Origin: Panorpa germanica
Taxonomy: Eukaryota; Arthropoda; Insecta; Mecoptera; Panorpidae
Direction of reading: 5' to 3'
NCBI GenBank assembly: GCA_963678705.1
Contig: OY783223.1
Location: 868,001 to 932,000, forward strand
Length of the DNA: 64,000 bases
Shown: positions 5,698 through 39,111 of the stretch, piece by piece
Layout of the letters: every line of letters starts with the position of its first letter
Numbering within the stretch: the stretch's first letter is position 1
Program-made: the position numbers and the translations under genes
The notes under the pieces: model-generated
Databases searched by the model: none
The model's input: the letters and a program-made list of their open reading frames with translations, nothing else
Told to the model about the DNA's origin: nothing

Positions 5698-8600
5698 AAA
5701 TTTTTGGTAAAAATAATTACAAAGTTGGCAAAAAAAGTCTTGAATTTTTCACGAACATCGTAAGCTTTTCCAGCAGCACGTTTTTCACCCGTAGTACTTG
5801 ATCGATTCGTGTCTGAGGTTTGTTGAGTTCCACTGTATGAGGAATCAAAATTTATGGGAAGGCCTTCACTATCCATTATAAAATTATGCAGTAAGCATAT
5901 GCGTTTGATTATGTTATCTGCTCGGTATCCAAATACATAATAAGATAATTTACCCTTATCTTATTATCCAGGCACACCAGATTTAAGACGTAAACAACAA
6001 CTGAATGCTGTATCAAAAATATAGATAAATAAATTAGTATAAATATGTATTGTGACACACATAGGCGGTTTGCTTTGTAGCTCATCCATCCCGCCGATTT
6101 ACGTCCGAATTCGCCGTCGCTTAAATACGGTTCCATACTGCGACAGGCCTTAGCGACTTGAAGAAGAACTCGTAAATTTGAAATGAAGTACCTGTCTCCT
6201 TTATCACAGAACTTCATTGATTTCGTTTTCGTTTTTTAAGTAACGTAACAATTTTGACCTATTAACTGTAACTTTTAATGTTAAATGATATATGATGTTC
6301 AGCAAATGCAAAAATGAACATTTATCTCGAATAGGGCTTCACATAAACACAAGACTTTTCTTGTCTCGTTTCGCTTTTCGTCTCTAAAAAGCGAGACGAA
6401 ACGAGACGAGACATTTCTGAAAACTATTGAGACCATATACGGCGAGTCACGAAACTTCGTTGCTCGGCTAATTTGCAATCAGTCGACTCGTGTGCAGAGG
6501 GACTTAATGTGAAACAAACATAAATGTCAAAGATACTTAGGCCATCCGGACACGAACCGACTGATTGCAAACTAGTCGTGCCGTGTTTCATGATTCTATA
6601 GAATTTTTAACAATAGCATAATAGGGAATTTTATTGTGTCGGATTTGTATTATTATTATTATTATTAATTGTTCGCCTTTCGGCTTTACAATCTACATTC
6701 TTAATACATTTCATATACTTCAACTTACAATTAAATTTTTTTTATTTACAAAAGTACTTTCTGCTTCTTCTTCTCCTGACCCTCTTCCTTCATTTTCCCT
6801 AGTCTTCCTTCTGGACAGGTCTATTCCCTAGTCTATTTTTCTGGGCTGAAGTTTAACTGTTTCCTCGCTACTTCTTTCTTTCTCCTGCTTCCCTTCACTG
6901 CCTCTTTTAGTACTTCCTCTCTCTTCCTGTTCCTTGTGTCGGATTTGTATGTATGTATGAATTTAAATACTTTTGAATAGCATTTATGATGCACCATCAA
7001 TAGCATGCCCTGCGACCAAGAAACACAGTCGCTCAAAACTGCCCAAAACCAATTTCAAATCAGTTTAGTTTCGTTCGTGCCGTGTGTGTTCTCTCACTCG
7101 TATACACGTGCATTCTCTCAGTAACAACAGAGTTGAATTCTCATTCGATTCGGGCAGATCGGTTTGCAATCAGTCGACCCGTGTGGGGACGGCCTTAATA
7201 TCAAACACCAGTACTCTTTGACACCGCAACTCGGGTCAACAAGACAGACAGAGATCTGATGTGTAATGTGAAACATAAACAAGTAATATCCCAGAAAACA
7301 ATTTGGTGAAGTGCCCTATTTAGTGACGTTTCTCTCACTATTTCACTTCAATTATAGTTCGCATATACTTTATCTTCATTTGTATTCCGACAAGTGGAGT
7401 AATTTCGCCATCTGTAGCCGATAAAGTAGACATTTTATATGAAAAAATGTGAGAAACTGAACTATAAATGAACTCTTTTATGACAAAAAAATCATGACGC
7501 ATCTTCAATATGATGTCAAAGTGACTCCAAAATGTTTACTGGGATTCAACTTTTCTTAAACAGACTATTTATCGGAATCGGAACTGATCGTGTAAGACCC
7601 CCTTAACAGTTTCAAAACTAGGGTTATTGAAAACCCTGTCACTATGTTTAATAGTTACCATAAAAGTTATGATGTATGATTATGATACCACTAAAATTTT
7701 GAGTCAGTATGCATTTGAATTATGTTTTCGATTCTCTACATTTCACGATAGTTTCATTATTTACTCCGTGTGAACACTATATTTTTCGAGTCATGGTGTG
7801 TACACTCGGTCTTTGACGGAACAGTTGAGTTTTAACAGTTTTCTAAGCTTTCAAAAAATCTGAAAAAATTCTGGATTACTTCTTGAAGTGCCTACTACAT
7901 GGTACAGAAGTTGCCAAAGTCCAAAGTTTGAAACCGTTGTAAATAAAAATTCACAAATAGTGAAAAACGCGGAAAAAATGGAATATTGTTAAAAAATTCG
8001 TAACTTTAGAACAAACAAATATTAAGAAAAACGGTTGTAGACTTTTTTATTTTAGACTATAACCTTTCGAAAGAATGTAGTGTCTTTGGCGTGGACTCGA
8101 AAAAATTGAATTATTTGTGTACCTGAAAGTTGGGAATATTTTACGGATTCAGGCATGTCATAATAAACGGAACGGTAATTAAACGGCACAAAATAAGTTT
8201 TTATTGATGAAAATACAAAAGTTGTGAAATAATAAATTATAATAGTTAATAATTAGTGTCAAAAAGAGAAGTTACGGTGCGCAACCTTTGAATTGTCACC
8301 CATCTTCAAAAACTTATTTTAGTAAAAAGATGACTAATAAAAAAAATCTATATATTTAATCTGAGAAATAATATATTAAATTACATCAAACATTTATCTT
8401 AACCATGAAAAAACTGTAAAACAACGAGAAAATAAAAAAAAAGGTCATTTACTAACTTTGGAAAATACAACGTCATTTGTAACCCTAACCCTTTTAACAA
8501 GTTTCACTGGCTCGCCTTTGCAAATAAACTGTCAGATCCGGACGCTGCTGGAACCTTCTGGCCCTAGCAGTACCTAGATTTTTTAGGGGGCTTAGGTGAA

Positions 8601-28460: not shown

Positions 28461-30177
28461 ACGTTAGCAAAATCTACACATTAGTTATTAAAATAACAAT
28501 ATAAACATTTTTTATGAGTTATGACGAAAATTAAAACTTTTACTATACATTTTACATATTTTAAAATTACGTGTTTTGGAAATATTCAGTTGCATAATCT
28601 GAATATCTAGTATATAAGAAAATCACATTTTTTATAATTGTTCATAGCTATAGCATAGCGGAGGTACTATAAAATACCATAAAAGCTGTGATTAAAGCTG
28701 TGTTTATTAGATATTAATTGAAACTCTCCTTCCATGGAGATGTCCAACCATTTTTAGATACAAATAAAAACTTGTTTCTAAACGAAGAATATAGTGAAAC
28801 AAAATATGAACATGAATTTAAAAACTATACGCTTATAATCGATTTGTGATTCGATTAAAATATTTTTTATTTCCTTATTTTTAATATTTAGATTATCTAT
28901 TTTATTTTAAAGAATATGTTTTATTAACATAAATATGAAGTCTTTTGTACTAAAGACAAAATCAATTCCTTCTTACGGTATCAATTAGGCAAATTGTAAC
29001 TCTTTTCTTTAGAGAATTAATTTTAATATAAAAATGTTTGTTTAGTTTTTCCTATCAATTTTATAAGACTGATGATATACAATATATACTTCAAATTACG
29101 ATAGTTTGTCGGCGACTCATACTTAAAACAAGTTGTTGGGGTAAACTGCCGATATAAATAAAATTCATTATCATATTATAGATTTAGCCCCCTTTTAAGT
29201 ATAAGTCGCCGCCGAACTATCGTGATTTGGACTATATATTTCATTTACCGAAAAAACGTTGTTAAAAAAAGATATTAATACTTAATTTTTATATTGTTTA
29301 TATATAATCACAGAAACACATTTGTGATGCATCTCAGGTTAAATTCTTTATTACAACTAACTTTTAAAGTGATAAACGGGGCCCTAAAATGTTTAAAATA
29401 ATCTAGAGCTATGTTATAATTAAATAAGACTCCTTTTTTTCAATATAAGGCCTCATGACTTTTACTTAGTTTATTTTAAGAAATATAGTAAACAGTTAAT
29501 ATTTCAAATACATTCAGTAGGGAATGTAGTTTTTTTTATAAAACGTTTATGTATAAGATAGTTTAATAAATAATACATGTTAAAATAATTGATTAAATGG
29601 TTGTGATACTTATGTAATAGTGCTATATATGTAATAAATGTATAACTATAAATAAAATATTTATGCTTTTTGTATTAACCCTGCACACATTGTTTCGTAT
29701 CGTAGTTATATTCAATATGTCTGATTTGAATTTGATTAAGATTGTTCGAAGCATGTTCTAAGCCACAGGTAGTAAATATATCCAGCAAAAGAAATTTCTT
29801 ATTTTTAACAGATTTTTTGTCATTTCCTACCGGCGTATCGCTGGCTGAAATAGTTTTTGTAGTGCAGATGTTAGTAATTAACAATTATTATGAATTCCGA
29901 AAATATTTTTTTAAACCCATTAGTTTTTTGTGTTACATCAGTCAGTATTGGGATCCCAATGGAATACGACGTAATCGGGCTATTGGCGTTTGAGAGGGGG
30001 CCAAATGTTTAACATTAACCAGTATTTGCAAAAAATATGTAACACATAAACAATTTTTCAAATTGAAAATAATTCAATTATTCAATCTAATCCCTAACAG
30101 CTCTAAAATTGAGAGCTGCAGTTAAGAAAACTTTTTGCTGCAGCTCTAAAATAGGGGTAGTATGACTCTGTTGTATA
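28461..30177. other. MOV10 3' region and intergenic DNA
   Basis: Likely 3' UTR followed by intergenic DNA; several AATAAA signals are present. Two overlapping ORFs at 29675-29993 have no recognisable family. A GAGAGCTGCAG/CTGCAGCTCT hairpin lies at about 30110-30150, just outside the left end of the large element. MITE-B sits at 29086-29235. Confidence 0.45.
29086..29235. repeat. MITE-B, internally deleted copy
   Basis: The ends are TTCAAATTACGATAGTTTG and the inverse CGAACTATCGTGATTTGGA. It lacks about 60 central bases compared with the copy at 40798-41012. Confidence 0.8.
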
Positions 30178-30861
30178 TAGACCGGTCAAATTAGACCAAA
30201 AAATAAGAGTAAAGTTACCTAAATTCCCACCAAGCTCAAAATCGGTAAGATTGTTTAAAATATCATTAAAAACAAAATTTGAAAGTTCCCCATTCAAGGT
30301 CAAAGGTAAAAAAAAAATGAGTTTTTCGCGATTTTCAGCAAAACGGTAAGTTTTATCATAAAAATACCTCAGACAAAAATTGTAGATCATAAAATTATCT
30401 ACAAAAAATTTATTAATACTTTTTTCTCTACGAGCTACCGTTTTTGAGATATAACGATTCAAAAAGTTGTAATCGTCATAATATGCATGAGTACGCCACG
30501 TATATATACATCTCTATAGTTGTAATATATGTTAAAATATTTTTCTATCGGTCGTTGTAACTTACACTACTAATATAAAATATACATAAGTTATAACTAT
30601 AAGGCCCGGTTTTATGGTTCGTCTTACTACCGAACTAAATAGCTAACTCCCGAATTAAACGAAAAATGAGTTTTATGGTCAAGGGTTAACGCTAACTCGG
30701 AACTAAAATCGCGGAGTAAGATATCCCGTCAAAAATCAAGGTTTAAATATTTAACTCCCGGAGTAAGTGTGCAACAGAGATAAAATATCATGCTATCTCA
30801 GCCAGTTTAGCTATCATTATTATAATATTTTAGGTTATAATATTAATAAATTAAATTATTT

Positions 30862-32023
30862 ATGATGAATTCTTTATTATTTGTGAGTGACCATAATCAA
30901 TTAGCAATAACAGATGATGAGGAAGACCAGCTCTTATACGAATATAGTATTAAGTTGAGAAATAAGAAAATTATTTAAAAAAAACCAAATTATTTGCATG
31001 ACTTAAATGACATTCATTTCTACGCAAAATTTCGCTTCCAAAAGGCAACTGTATTGAAGATTTTAGATCTAATTAATAACAAGTTGGAATTATGAAGTAG
31101 CAGGTAATATATAAAACACAGCTATATGTATATACTTATACTGTAAAATCACTTAAGCATAACCTTAAAATAATGCACACTAGTTATCTGTGTATGTGTT
31201 TCAGAAATGATACTACTTCTCTATCTCCAATGAATCAGTTGTTATTGACTCTGAGATATTATGCAACAGGGAGTTTTTTAATTGTGGTTGGAGATTTTTC
31301 TGGAGTGCATAAGTCAACAGCATCTAGAACAGTTCACCGAGTCACCACTGCAATAGCAGAATTAAGACCAGCGTATGTGAAAATGCCAACAACTGTCTCA
31401 GAAATACAAGCAGTAAATATGGGCTTTTACAACATAGCCAGCTTTCCAAGGGTAATAGGAGCCATAGACTGCACCCATGCTAAAATACAGTCTCCAGGAG
31501 GTGCCGATGCCGAAGTATATAGGAATAGAAAGGGATATTTCTCGTACAATGTACAAACAATATCTGATCATTCCTTGAAAATCCTAGATGTTGTAGCCAG
31601 ATGGCCTGGCTCAACTCATGATTCTACAATTTTTGAAAATTCAAGGATACAATCACAGTTTGAGTTAGGAGTATTTGGCAATAATGTATTATTGTGTATC
31701 TGAGGCATTGCACTTTACCTGAACATCAGTTGTGGAGAGACAATATGGTGTATTGAAAAGAAGATTCCCAGTCTTAGCTATGGGTATTCGGTTAAAAAAG
31801 ACATCAGTTCAAGGCATAATTGTATCGTGCAGTATTGCATAATATTGCTATAATGGAGAAAGAACAAGAGCCACCAGAAGATTCAGAAACAAGAGTATCA
31901 CTTGCAAGAGCTATTTCCGAAGGGAATATTCCTGCTACTGTTGAAGATAATGGAAGCCAGATTGGAAGCAGAAATGTATTTATTTCCTATTTTCGCGACA
32001 GAATTAGAAACAGGGATACCTAA
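30862..32023 (+). pseudogene. PIF/Harbinger (HARBI1-like) transposase, broken
   Basis: An N-terminal piece starts at 30862 (MMNSLLFVSD) and is damaged near 30975. An intron probably ends at about 31203. The main block (31203-31700) has the helix-turn-helix (SASRTVHRV), the first catalytic Asp in AIDCTHAKI and the second in WPGSTHDSTIFENS. The frame then stops at 31703. A later block has lost the frame but still reads the Glu motif (ERQYGVLKRRFP) and the C-terminal LHNIAI region up to 32023. The segment between the second Asp and the Glu is mostly deleted, so the enzyme cannot be active. The normal family length is about 350 residues. Confidence 0.85.
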
Positions 32024-32158
32024 TTGTCTAAATTAATATATAATATTATCTAATATATAAATATATATATATTTTTTTTGTACTATAGTTTATTATGTAT
32101 TAATTGTACAATTTATAATATATCATCTTAATTGAAATAATCTTTATAAAGTATTCTT

Positions 32159-33482
32159 TCATTTTTTATATTCAAGATTTTTTTTTAGTAATTTTAATTT
32201 AATGTTTTCACATTCTATTTCTATTTCTATTTTTTTTTTTTGTAATATATGTATTTCATTTCTCCTGTTCTCATTTTCACTGTGTTCTTTTTTTTGTAAT
32301 ATATGTATTTCATTTCTCCTGTTCTCATTTTCACTGTGTTCTTTTTTTTGTAACTCATGGAGTTCATTTTTTCTTTTCTCATTTTCACAGTGCTCCTTTT
32401 CGAGAAGATGTATTTGCGTTTCTGCTACACTTTCTCTCGTTTCAACCCATGAAGAAATTTTTTGCTTCTTCTTTGACTGCTTAATTGTCTTCATGGGCAA
32501 ACTGGGGAGTCTTCTTTTTAGTTGAAGAGCCTTCGTCGGTGTTGCTGCATCTTCGTTGCTGATCACTTTTGCTATAATTAATATGTTTATTATTGTATCT
32601 GTTATTGTTATAACATATATTATTATCAATGTTATTATTATTACACGTTGACGCTTCTACGTTTATTGGAGTTTGACTCAGCACATTATTTTCGTTGGGT
32701 TCTTTTAAAAAAGGATGCACCCTCATGGACAACATAGCTGGTGTATAATCATCCCAGCTATGTTGCTGTACAGGCTCTATAATGAAGTATAATAATTATT
32801 TATTCGTCTTCATCATTTTAAGTAAACATTTTCAAAACCACATAATATTTTTACTTTACCTTCAATATCCTCTTCTTTCATTAGTTCCCTAACATATGCT
32901 CCCTCATCTATTGCCATAAGAGACTCTTGGGAATGTGGTATCGGACCTTAAATTATATTTATATGCATAGAAATATCATATCGAGAATAAATGTATTGAG
33001 TACATGAGTTAAATTACATACCTGGTAAATTTATAATATCCGAATCTAATAAACCTTCTTCACCCTCAGCCGATAACTTAATGAAATCTTTAACTCTGTA
33101 CAGGACATCGTTCATTTGCGGATTTGTTGCCGGTCCACCTCCTGTACCAAATATTGATTTTCTATCTGCTGCTGATAATTTTCTGGCATCCTTTTTCATT
33201 GCCTTAAATTTAAGTTTGAGGTTTTCTTTAGACCTCTGCAAGACGCTTCTGGTATTAAACATAACCGTAATGTCATCCCAAGCCTTCTCCTAGTAATTAT
33301 TTTTCTTTATTTATATGAAATACTTGCAATAATATTAGACAATTAGTACATACCTTAATTCTGGAAGTGACTCCATCCGTTTTCGTGTTTAAAACAATTG
33401 ACTTGAAACTTTCCACCGCATCTATTAGGGCTTGGCAATCCACAATAGAGAAATTAAACGAACGTGCTCTCTTGTCAGACAT
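32159..33482 (-). pseudogene. Harbinger accessory Myb/SANT-like protein, C-terminal frameshift
   Basis: Four minus-strand exons fit: 33354-33482, 33022-33289, 32860-32946 and 32776 downwards. The first two encode a trihelix (Myb/SANT-like, Zeste-type) DNA-binding domain with EKAWDDITVMFN and a basic LKFKAMKKDARK segment. The third is acidic. The fourth is Asn-rich and ends at 32481. In another frame (32159-32525) follows a Lys/Glu coiled coil with an 18-residue tandem repeat (54-bp units at 32243-32353, KKEHSENENRRNEIHILQ). The coiled coil is typical of the C-terminus of these proteins, so I infer a frameshift near 32500. In PIF/Harbinger this protein partners the transposase for nuclear import and TIR binding. 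Confidence 0.7.
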
Positions 33483-33908
33483 TTTTAAAACAATAATTAA
33501 ACTGAATCTGACATTTACTAATGTAAACAAATATTCCAATTTCATAAATATTTAAATCTACGTACCACTTGCCTTGAATGAGTGGTTTACGTTACGGTTT
33601 ATTTATTTATTTCAGTATTAACTAACACGGGATTAAATTTGGATGATAAAACCCGATACAAAAATAAGTACCGAACTAAACTAACTCCGGGTTTCATAAC
33701 CCCGAAGTAAATAAAAAACCATAAAACCGGCCCTAAGAATATCAGGTCCCATCTGTCCCCTGTTCAATTTTGTGCGTGGGTAGGGTCTTATACCTGCTAT
33801 AATAACTGAAATACTGTTAGTCTTGAACACAGTCTTGAACGCCAGTTGGTAGTGAAAACACGTGTTTATCCTAACCTATATCGTGCTGTTTTGAGTTTTA
33901 TAACAAAA

Positions 33909-36900
33909 ATGTCAGAATATTGTTTTATTTGCGCTAAACTTTTAACTGAAAGTGAAATTGTTACTGTTGAACGTGGTATGAAGACATTAATTAATGCAAG
34001 TATCGAAAGAGCAGATGAATTTTCGGAGTATCTAAAAAATCAAAAATCTGTGACAATACATGAAAATTGTCGTAAAAATTATACTCGAAAGTCTTCTATT
34101 GCTGCAGCTAATAAAAGACAACGTGAAGAACAAGAAGCCAGTACATCCACAGAAAGTCCTCCTCGTACTAGATTACGTTCGAGTGAATCAGCTTTTTGTT
34201 CTAAAAAACAATGTCTATTTTGTGGCCAGGAATTGAATGAAGAGTATGAGAAAAGAAAACGCTCAGATATTCGCCGTCGAATCAGTCAAGTAAGTACACT
34301 TCAATTTAAAGTGTAGCCGCAGGTTACGCCAAAATAATAGCAAAAGTTCAATTGGTATTGACAGTGTAGACATTTGAATGAGAATCGGATTTTTTTTAAA
34401 TAATTACATCATTTTTTTTAACTGTGTACAATGTGTTAATCTTGGTTTATTTTACAGACGACTGTCGCCATGAAATTTAGGTTTAAGTTAGATATAAGAA
34501 TAATATAAATACATAATCTTTCAAATATATACAATGTTGCTATGTTAAAAATATAACTATATGAAATAAAATTTTAATTACTGTTAATAAATATATGATT
34601 GTTTTAACTCTATCTGAAATCAAATTTAAAATCAATGTTTAGTTTTAAGAAACTAGAACGCATGAAATAATAATAAAAACTTGCAACAAAGTAACAGCCA
34701 GAGATTGTCAGAAAATAATGACATGAATTTGATAAAATCCATAGATGTAAATTAAGATTAAAATTAACAGTTTGAGAATTCATGATCTAGCTTATAAAAC
34801 ACGTGGGGCATAGTTTAGAGTTAAAATCACGTTTATATACAACCATAAAAATTGCAATTAAAATTCGAACATAAGATTAAAGAAATAGAAATAACAAAAC
34901 GCACTTCCGTATTAAAACAAAGCATTGGCGATAGACTTATTGAACCCCAGAACGAAAGACAGAGAGAAAAGCATTACGCACTTAATACCATATACAAAAG
35001 TAAAAATGATGATGTCAGTGGTTCCAAACAAAGAATCAATGAGATCACCCTTTGGAAATATTAAATCAGAGTGGGAGATTTGCTTTACCTCCTTAGAATC
35101 ATTACATTATTAAAATCAGTCTAATTCTAGCCTCGGAAGGAGAGCTAATTGGTCTCACAATTGCAGAGCCTTTGCAAAGTTCAAAGTTAGTGTTAAGCAT
35201 TACTTTTCGAACACGCGGCAAAGTCTAAAAACAAGTTCAAGTTAAATTCAAACAGGAATTTAAGTCAGAAGTCTAAGTTCAAGTTCTAAGTTAAATTCAA
35301 AGAGGAATTTAAGTCTAAAGTCAAGTGCAAGCGTTTTGAAATCAAGTTTTGAAATCATTGCATGTAACCAAGTTCGAAGTTAAATTTAAAAGATAAATTT
35401 AAGTTAAAGTGTAAGAGAAAAGCATTGTAATTTCCCATTTAAATCGAATTAAATGTGAATAAAACAAGTGTAAACCTTAAACCCAAGTGTTTAAAATCCA
35501 ATTACCCGACTTATACCTTTACAGAGAGTAAAGAAAGCAGCTACAAGTCCAGTGCAGAACGACCCGGAAAGCTAGCAGAGATCTACACAGGATAAAAGCT
35601 AAGTAACATTTCATATAACAAAAACGTAGAAATCTAGATAAAACGACAGTGAGACTTGAGAACCACAGGGAACTCACACACAAACTATATAGACACAGGA
35701 GCGACCTGCACAGAAATCATCAGTTGCCGCCATATTGGAAACACACAGCTCGGAGCAACGCTCGTGACTACGAACGCATCGAACGAATGACAGACACCTA
35801 ACAAACATATGTTTTGACAAAATTGCAGCACTAACACAATTCAAGGTCATACGCAGAGTATCCAGGAACGATTGCAGATACGCATGGATACTAGAACAAC
35901 GTACTGAGAGACAGAGTCACGTCGTATAATGCATGTCATAGATTTAATTTTATGTATTTTACAGGAATTATAATTTTAAATCGTATGTCTTAATAACCAT
36001 TAACCCTTGATATAACAATTCCCAAAGGAACGCTCTAAAGAAAACGCTCGAGAATAGATGCATGTTTTGATATAGGTTTTACAGCTAAAGGTTAGGTACA
36101 AAATCGACGTCAAAATAACAAACATCTAAGGCCAAGGCTGATGTCAAACAAATTGCCGACACACAGACATCGGATATAGAAAGAGGTGACAGTGGTGAGA
36201 TCGCTGTGGACCTTTGGTAATATAAAAATTGGTGACGGCTGTAGGAAACAGTTGGTCACAGACGCAACGGTTATAAAAGATTCAATTCTGGAAATAGCTC
36301 GGACTCGTAACGATACTACAGCAAAAGCTGTTCTTGCTCGACTCGAATTTAAATATGATTTAGTTGCTGCAGAAGCTAAATATCATCACGATTGCTATGC
36401 TTCTTTCAAGAAACCTTCCACTGGACGTAAAATCGGTCGTCCTAAAGACGAAGCTACGAATCGGGCAATGGAGGAAATATTTACTTACATGCAAAATAGC
36501 GATGACTGTCAGTTTACTTTAAACGAATTAAAGAATATTTGCAAAACTAAGGCTTTAGATAACAGAACGATTAAGCTACGACTAAAAGTGAAGTATGGTG
36601 ATAAACTTATTATCACTGAGAAATCGGGAGCATCAACATTCATATGCTTAGTAGATAATCATCATACAGAAGGAAGGGATGCATGTTGATGCAAGTGATT
36701 CGCGAATGAAAAAAGATGCTAAAGATGTACGAAAACTTTTAGAGTGTTTCTCAACGCATGATCCTTTTCCAGACGTTAGCAAAATTGTTTCTATTGCGAG
36801 TGGTGTCGTTGGTGATGATAAAATCAATTGTTATAAAGCTCGTGAAGTTGGGCTTGCTTCTATGGCAAAAATGACAGGACTCACATTCAATAATATTAAA

Positions 36901-38496
36901 TTAAAATGCTCTGACAAAGTTGTTCCTCTTTTAGCTATGACTAGTACCATAAAAGTTCATGAAGAAAAAGTACCTGTTGACCCTGTATTGTTGTTCCAAC
37001 GCATGAGTATTACTGCAGCATTTCAAGATGAAATAGAAAACTATTTTGAATATGAACTATCTCCCTACCCTCTATCGTTATTTGATGACATCGGGATGCG
37101 TAAAACACAGAAGTCTGCAATTTACGATTGTTTCGAAAAGGTAGACTTTGATATTAACAACACAAATGCGACATACATCATTGACAGAGGATACTTACTA
37201 CGAGTACATCGCGTTGTGTGGGATAGTGAAGAAACATTCAACGTTATATTAGATAAATACTCGTACGTACAGTATGTACGTCGACATTTTGGTTCCCGAG
37301 TTACTGTCGTATTTGATGGCTATAATGATTGCACGAGAAATACCAAAGCTGCAGAACAGCGTCGTCGAACTTTAGCAACATCTTCATCAATTGATATTTT
37401 ATTTGATGAAAATATGACAGTTCCAACCAGCCAACAAAAATTTCTTTCTAATACTCACAACAAGTCTCGGTTCATTTCAATGTTGAAAGAAAGATTTACT
37501 ACGGAAAATATATTGGTAAGACAAGCTAATAATGATGCTGATGTATTGATAATTGAAACAGCAATTGAGCAATTCAATTTGACAAATACAACTATTGTTG
37601 TTGGTGAAGATATAGACTTACTCGTATTACTGACTGCTCGAACTCCAACTGAAAAAACTATTTTCTTCTTAAAACCAGGAAAAGCTCAACATCAATCGGA
37701 AATGTATTCATCAAAAAGTTTATCTACTTTTGCAAAGTGTCAAAATCATGTACTATTTTTACACGCAATAACTGGCTGGGATACGACATCTGCATTTTAC
37801 AGGAGGGGTAAAACAACAGTTTTCAAACTATTTGAGAAACAAAATTTAATTGAATGTGCTGAAGTTTTTAAAAATAGTAATTCTACTCGACAAGAAATTA
37901 TTACTAACGGCATTCGCTTTCTTCTTTCTATGTACGGAGCTCTTAAAAAAACTACCTGCTTAGATAAGTATAGATATGCATGTTTCGTTAAAAAAACCAA
38001 AAGTAAAAAACAAGTACAATTAGCTTGTCTTCCTCCAACCTCAGTTGCTGCTCATCAACATCTTTTTAGGGTATATTACCAAGTTCAAGTGTGGCTTGGT
38101 TATCAGCTAGACCCTACAGACTGGGGTTGGAAGTTAGTCAACAATTCATTAGAACCAGTGCACACTTTACTTCCACCTGCGCCGGAAAAACTGCTGAACT
38201 CGATTTTTTGCAACTGCAAAAAGGGATGCAGTGCTAAATGTGGTTGCAAAAAAGTCGGACTGTTCTGTTCTCCGGCATGTACACATTGTCAAGGCCGGTT
38301 GTGCTCTAATATTGAATCACCAACAGTAGAGGATCCGTTTGATTCCAACGAGGCAACATGCGATACATCGCTATTAACGCAGTTTACATGCACTCAGGAT
38401 GAAGATGAAGAAGAACAAGAACAAGACGAACAAGAACAAGAAGATCAAGAAGAAGAACAAGAAGAAGATTTTGAAAGTTACGACTCATACGATTAA
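33909..38496 (+). CDS. FEN1/XPG-like PIN nuclease with CXC tail (mobile family)
   Basis: Exon 1 (33909-34289, MSEYCFICAK...) has two CxxC-type cysteine clusters and ends at a GTAAGT donor. The next exon fits from 36252 in phase (LVTDATVIKD...). The frame stops at 36689 and the main block (36679-38496) starts in the +1 frame, so a frameshift, internal deletion or second start is needed. The main block carries FEN1-like acidic motifs in order: YIIDRGYLL, VTVVFDGY followed by an Arg-rich helix, NDADVLIIETAIE, VVGEDIDLLVLL and HAITGWDTTSAF. Next comes a DWGW motif, then CNCKKGCSAKCGCKK..C..AC..C, a CXC (tesmin/TSO1-like) zinc-binding tail, and a Glu/Gln/Asp-rich end. I recognise it as a multi-copy metazoan family of unknown biochemistry; nuclease function is inferred from the motif order. 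Confidence 0.7.
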
Positions 38497-39111
38497 ATTT
38501 CACTACTTTTTTTTTAACTTAAATTGCTTTTATCTTTTCAATCTCTGCTAATATCCATTATTTTTCAATAGTTTCAAATTAAACAGGATCAAAACTGACC
38601 CGTGGAATAGGCCTACTGAGGAAACCACGTTAAAAAAAACGCGCTAAGTACACTACCTCATAGGTGGCGAGGAAACGTGTGCATATTATGACGATTACAA
38701 CTTTTACAACTTTTTGAATCGTTATATCTCAAAAACAGTGGCTCGTAGAAAAAAAAGTATTAATAAATTTCTTGTAGATAATTTTATGATCTACAATTTT
38801 TGTCTGAGGTATTTTTATGATAAAACTTACCGTTTTGCTGAAAATCGCGAAATACTCATTTTTTTACCTTTGACCTTGAATAAAATTTTTTCCTTACAGG
38901 GGAAAGATGGAGAACTTTCAAATTTTGTTTTTAATGATATTTCAAACAATCTTACCGATTTTCAGCTTGGTGGGAATTTAGGTAACTTCGAATGTCTAAA
39001 TTGACCGGACTAATAAAAGAGTTGGAAAACCAGCGAACGTGAATTACCATACTTTTAAATTTTCTATAAGGTTGGATCCCTTTAATAATCAAAGACGCAA
39101 AATAACTTTTT

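Follow-up and report, generated by a model that had tools for sequence, protein, structure and literature searches.

A gene that encodes a FEN1-like nuclease and lies between long inverted repeats raises the question of whether a DNA transposon can move with a flap nuclease in place of a transposase. Such an arrangement is present in the window, a stretch of 64,000 nucleotides from Panorpa germanica that was analyzed here along with a search of 464 Mb of genome sequence. A preliminary description, made from the letters of the window, proposed a transposon class that may use a structure-specific flap nuclease and not a DDE enzyme, or that pairs such a nuclease with a transposase supplied in trans. 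Our comparison of the element with its relatives makes it probable that the window instead holds a decayed AcademX-like DNA transposon that is non-autonomous and whose parent gene encoded zinc-binding-type motifs, a central region, the nuclease, and a CXC-like tail.

Element borders, copies, and empty sites

The long inverted repeats reported previously are indeed present, wherein positions 30212-30487 match 38680-38988 in ungapped pieces that are 95-100% complementary, and a gapped alignment of the two repeats yields 265 identical columns out of 312. A TA target duplication, considered because TA lies on both sides of these repeats, had to be given up. Copy comparison and empty sites place the terminal TA inside the element, whose termini are TAG and CTA, and the target duplication is the 3-bp sequence ATA. 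We compared 29 non-redundant copies among the loci examined that carry both ends with no more than 5 mismatches from the window tips, a count that omits loci with a single end and copies whose flanks are repeated. In all 29 of them TA lies directly outside the ends originally proposed, nearly always as part of TAG[A/C]CCGG; the terminal TA is missing from L030, a locus with one unpaired end. An exact 3-bp duplication outside the terminal TA was found in 25 of the 29 copies (the exceptions are L014, L024, L036, and L039), compared with a mean of 4.05 and a maximum of 11 matches when the flank pairs were shuffled 2000 times.

Further copies with the same ends and their empty sites, which the preliminary description had suggested comparing, were thus available. 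The joined flanks of 39 copies (redundancy kept) were compared with the loci examined, giving 30 matches across the junction, and seven junctions from four insertions (L034, L007, L016, and L018) were inspected. Paralogous empty sites for all four insertions carry the target once. The empty site of L034 has a single ATA (94.6% identity; another match for this insertion is gapped and uninformative at the junction), that of L007 has a single ATA (80.5% identity) and is located in the window itself at 8274-8491, and that of L016 has a single AAA (77% identity). For L018, the ATA of the filled site corresponds to AAA in three empty copies. The joined flanks of the window copy gave only 73% matches among the loci examined. 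On the basis of the copy comparison and the empty sites, we moved the borders of the window element to those listed in Table 1. The many copies with 3-bp duplications, together with the empty sites, demonstrate the mobility of this element family.

Table 1. Features of the element in the window (coordinates are positions in the window).
Feature	Position	Strand	Remarks
Left 3-bp target site duplication, ATA	30175..30177	.	
Whole element, TAGACCGG...CCGGACTA	30178..39012	+	8835 bp including two later insertions
Left terminal inverted repeat	30178..30487	+	
Nested PIF/Harbinger element	30603..33733	+	TAA duplications 30600-30602 and 33734-33736; DDE_Tnp_4 match in ORF 31173-31703
First gene part, Cys/His zinc-binding-type motifs (by eye)	33909..34311	+	Continuous with 36276-36665 in L039 and L053
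1964-bp insertion splitting the gene	34312..36275	.	AAAG duplications; starts TGTAGCC
Second part of N-terminal region, HHDCYASF motif	36276..36665	+	
Internal deletion point	36666..36680	.	About 2.7 kb in L039 here, including the central transposase-like region
605-aa open frame with FEN1-like nuclease and CXC-like tail (3′ part of the gene)	36679..38496	+	
FEN1-like domain: IIDRG, VVFDGY, DADVLI, EDIDLLV, TGWDTTSAF	37141..37998	+	
Nine-cysteine CXC-like motif	38209..38304	+	
Right terminal inverted repeat	38680..39012	-	
Right 3-bp target site duplication, ATA	39013..39015	.	

Matches to the protein were found at no fewer than 73 places in the genome (72 of 711 candidates scored), wherein 61 show at least 77% identity, five show 48-50%, and seven show 38-39%. 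Elements of the more distant families end in TAGACCAGGG (L044 and L045) or TAGCCCA (L046 and L054), and by eye a matching 3-bp duplication flanks four of the five elements compared (L044, L045, L046, and L054, not L047). Four copies clustered on one contig (L031, L033, L037, and L038; contig C3, 13.38-13.47 Mb) have identical 16-bp flanks on both sides and were probably multiplied by regional duplication, such that transposition would not be the sole route by which these copies have increased. The window also contains a related short foldback at 2483-2991, which begins with the tip TAGCCCGGTCAA and includes, at 2517-2991, a palindrome (83%). Parts of this foldback are 78-80% alike to the repeats of the element, and a search for its right tip found none.

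The gene in the window copy and in its longer relatives

The notion that the inverted repeats enclose one gene proved too simple. The element harbors a nested PIF/Harbinger transposon, whose DDE_Tnp_4 match has a Pfam E value of 9.9e-16, and a 1964-bp insertion, and the 605-aa frame with the nuclease represents no more than the 3′ portion of a longer gene. Once the insertions are set aside, this gene starts at 33909 and continues into 36276-36665. An intron at 34290-36186 was considered and rejected because L039 and L053 are continuous there, which identifies the interruption as an insertion, possibly a solo LTR. Judged against its relatives, the window copy is a decayed, internally deleted derivative from which the middle of the gene is gone.

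What the window copy has lost can be seen in L039, a copy of 6374 bp in which a single 638-aa frame extends from the central region through IIDGG and VVFDGY, and the next frame holds the motifs from DAD to TGCD. L053 is arranged likewise: a single frame there covers 552 aa, leading from the central region almost up to the first acidic motif. In both copies, zinc motifs and the central region precede the nuclease. L054, which belongs to another family, has the zinc part, a central region, and the CXC tail between 590-bp inverted repeats, and it is a longer sibling of the L046-type copies, with which it shares the CXC tail. Each of the longer copies examined (L039, L052, L053, L054, and L055) is interrupted or incomplete, and no intact autonomous copy was found among them. 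The length of L039 is near the average of 5565 bp that is given for curated bivalve Academ elements in the passage concerned (PMC10294476).

The central region is represented by 45 rows in the genome, eight of which (from seven places) cover 140 or more of the 365 aa at an identity of 88% or higher. Residues 161-743 of L052 align with the corresponding region of L053 at 25% identity (E 2.8e-28). DUF6589, which we take to be the Academ-type transposase and which had been named as a candidate before L052 was compared with Pfam, is the sole Pfam match of L052 at E values up to 10 (residues 544-638, E 0.0054), with a score of 15.9 bits that is below the Pfam cut-off of 27. The central pieces of L039, L053, L054, and L055 gave no DUF6589 match in Pfam, and the central region of the window family gave neither this nor any other meaningful Pfam match. 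A genome search for PF20231/DUF6589 by its motifs returned no match, and its control was silent too; no mention of DUF6589 was found in the literature searched. A profile of the central region revealed no meaningful relative in the PDB, the only matches being interleukin-22 chains at E 0.45 or worse. By motif reading, DN-x-D, T-[FY]-D, LG-x-FH, and a late D-x-V-[IL]-E-Q are candidates for a DDE center. We infer that the central region is probably a DDE-type transposase of the Academ type.

The FEN1-like nuclease and the CXC-like tail

The five acidic motifs described for the 605-aa frame are present in the order given, and they are conserved in proteins of the related families that are 38-51% identical, where they read IIDGG or VVDGG, VFDGY, DAD, DID, and SGCD. 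Within the window family, we aligned 33 rows, of which 15 cover the first motif and 30 cover the last aspartate. The aspartate of the first motif is present in 14 of 15 rows (the other has valine) and the last aspartate in 30 of 30. The forms IIDRG and TGWDTT are unique to the window copy, as glycine replaces the arginine in 14 of 15 covering rows and cysteine replaces the tryptophan in 29 of 30. The window copy also has two 2-residue insertions that are absent from the other compared proteins covering these sites.

The assignment to the FEN1/XPG group was examined by profile comparison. From 80 listed loci (out of at least 120 matches), 62 were retained by length and 57 of these by an E-x-E-A filter, yielding a set of archaeal-type FEN1 proteins. 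With hhalign, a profile of five transposon proteins aligned with this set over 190 columns with a score of 32.0 (P 0.0028) and a probability of 10.9%, a value limited by the thinness of the transposon profile (Neff 1.9). The register pairs VFDGY with VFDGKPP, DAD with E-x-E, GQDIDLL with SQDYDSLL, and SGCDTTS..GKGKK with GTDFN..GIGPK; the first acidic motif (IIDGG) is located outside the local match. The real score exceeds those of all 420 shuffles, for which the maxima were 24.2 (n = 60) and 26.0 (n = 240) with column shuffles and 26.5 (n = 120) with block shuffles, and the reversed FEN1 profile reached 19.8. Other routes did not add to this result. Pfam XPG_N and XPG_I (PF00752/PF00867) gave no match at E values up to 1, and the only Pfam matches of L045 were NYN (0.034) and 5_3_exonuc_N (0.051). 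Single-sequence AlphaFold2 modeling of window positions 37141-38340 gave a mean pLDDT of 39.4, which is too poor to use; PDB sequence searches gave no useful match, and no relatives were confirmed in viral and prokaryote contigs. The FEN1-like assignment is supported by the profile comparison with its controls.

The element protein resembles FEN1/XPG (Rad2) nucleases in the order and register of VFDG, an acidic pair, DxDxL, and G-x-D, and of the GKGKKT-like stretch that comes next. It differs in having DAD where FEN1 has E-x-E and in its CXC-like tail, which to our knowledge FEN1 does not carry. The nuclease of AcademX we take to be of the XPG type; the published passage on that lineage says only "nuclease".

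The tail had been likened to the tesmin/TSO1 CXC domain, and this comparison holds for its nine cysteines, which follow the spacing rule of CXC motifs, but not for Pfam, wherein PF03638 gave no match at E values up to 1. Moreover, the tail differs from tesmin/TSO1-like proteins in having a single motif that is placed at the end of a nuclease. The nine cysteines are unchanged in the 21-22 of the 33 window-family rows that cover them and are also present in L045, L046, and L047; L044 has tyrosine at the third.

Selection, rival readings, and a proposed mechanism

Nuclease-only copies are frequent, and they speak for a genuine class of transposons that have no DDE enzyme and use the FEN1-like/CXC protein by itself as the transposase. 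In other families, the long inverted repeats of L044, L045, L046, and L047 enclose the nuclease/CXC frame and nothing else of the gene. L044 (4190-5893) and L045 (3800-5458) reside in elements of about 3.5 kb with inverted repeats of 714-746 bp and have single open frames of 568 and 553 aa, respectively; they differ by 12 nonsynonymous and six synonymous changes, too few to judge selection. In the window family, many copies of 2.0-2.6 kb retain much of this frame, although nine copies of the 2386-bp type are without its C-terminal part. Against this reading, longer relatives have the large central region in the same gene, the L046-type copies have the longer sibling L054, and changes among the window-family copies are near neutral. 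For 30 window-family rows (three short fragments were dropped), the singletons comprise 75 nonsynonymous and 29 synonymous changes, six stops, and five multiple changes, where the expected ratio of nonsynonymous to synonymous changes is 3.1 or 2.79. Shared changes (18 nonsynonymous, one synonymous, and one stop) have, if anything, more nonsynonymous changes than expected, and these numbers can be inflated by copies that were duplicated together with their flanks, each of which entered the count separately. Selection that retains the nuclease within the window family was therefore rejected; the near-neutral pattern is what would be expected for derivatives moved in trans. Since longer siblings are in hand for both the window and L046 families, their nuclease-only copies are best seen as deletion derivatives; for L044/L045, no such sibling was seen. 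A class that uses a flap nuclease without a DDE enzyme is thus unsupported, and we regard it as highly improbable. The transposon that seemingly lacks a transposase would then be a by-product of decay and not a new class.

It is also unlikely that the element is AcademX-like with the nuclease as a passenger or repair aid that has no step in transposition. The short derivatives L003, L007, and L008 (487-661 bp, with 3-bp duplications) have spread without the nuclease, from which one can conclude no more than that it is dispensable in cis. Between families, however, constraint is strong: the nuclease/CXC frames of L046 and L047 have dN 0.18 and dS 1.6, a ratio of 0.11 (one stop codon set aside), which indicates that this protein was kept working in the parents, and in L039 the nuclease shares one frame with the central region. 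A pairing of the nuclease with a non-Academ transposase, from another or an unnamed superfamily, we consider rather unlikely. In its favor, the link to Academ consists of the sub-threshold DUF6589 match and the equation of DUF6589 with the Academ transposase, and AcademX is known here by description. Nevertheless, both features reported for AcademX, a nuclease and a 3-4 bp duplication, are found in our elements.

Within the Academ superfamily, the AcademX lineage (Kojima 2020) is described as encoding a nuclease and making 3- or 4-bp duplications, whereas AcademH makes 9- or 10-bp duplications, and the author links this difference to nuclease versus helicase (PMC10045372). A nuclease-encoding DNA transposon with 3-bp duplications is what we observe, and the likeness to AcademX is drawn from the published description. 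In the present elements, zinc motifs, central region, FEN1-like nuclease, and CXC-like tail follow one another in a single protein. The window copy differs in being without the central region and in being broken by two insertions. No sequence-level account of AcademX was found in the portions of the literature searched. The best reading is of an AcademX-like element, since transposons that combine a nuclease with duplications of 3-4 bp are already in print under that name (PMC10045372). Accessory nucleases are also carried by the DDE transposons KolobokP and KolobokD, although theirs are described as His-Me finger and DEDDh enzymes, which are not FEN1-like (PMC9587614).

Building on the observed ends, 3-bp duplications, empty sites, copy family, internal deletion, and nuclease-FEN1 kinship, the AcademX-like reading suggests a mechanism. 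In the parent, a single chain would combine zinc-binding-type motifs, the central region, the FEN1-like nuclease, and a CXC-like tail for DNA binding, and this protein would act on TAG..CTA ends to give 3-bp duplications. Its transposase would cut and join with a 3-bp stagger, the nuclease may trim flaps or 5′ strands at the ends of the element while it is being excised or joined, and the CXC-like tail and the zinc motifs would bind DNA. Lacking the central region, the window copy would be movable only by protein from longer copies. The earlier suggestion of a nuclease paired with a transposase fits in this respect, as this copy would need supply in trans, except that the pairing appears to exist within one gene.

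These findings correct the tempting reading of a transposon without a transposase and establish the true ends, the gene order, and a 3-bp duplication backed by empty sites. They do so for a group of transposons in which none of the element's own gene pieces scored above the Pfam cut-off in our scans. The kinship with FEN1, supported by controls, makes it a testable question whether the 5′ strands are cut by a flap nuclease during transposition of this kind. By analogy with TnsA in Tn7, we offer the tentative and somewhat doubtful proposal that a DDE center joins the 3′ ends and that a flap nuclease aimed by the CXC-like tail cuts the 5′ strands. If true, this would be a eukaryotic transposon in which each of the two strand cuts is made by a different nuclease fold of the same protein.
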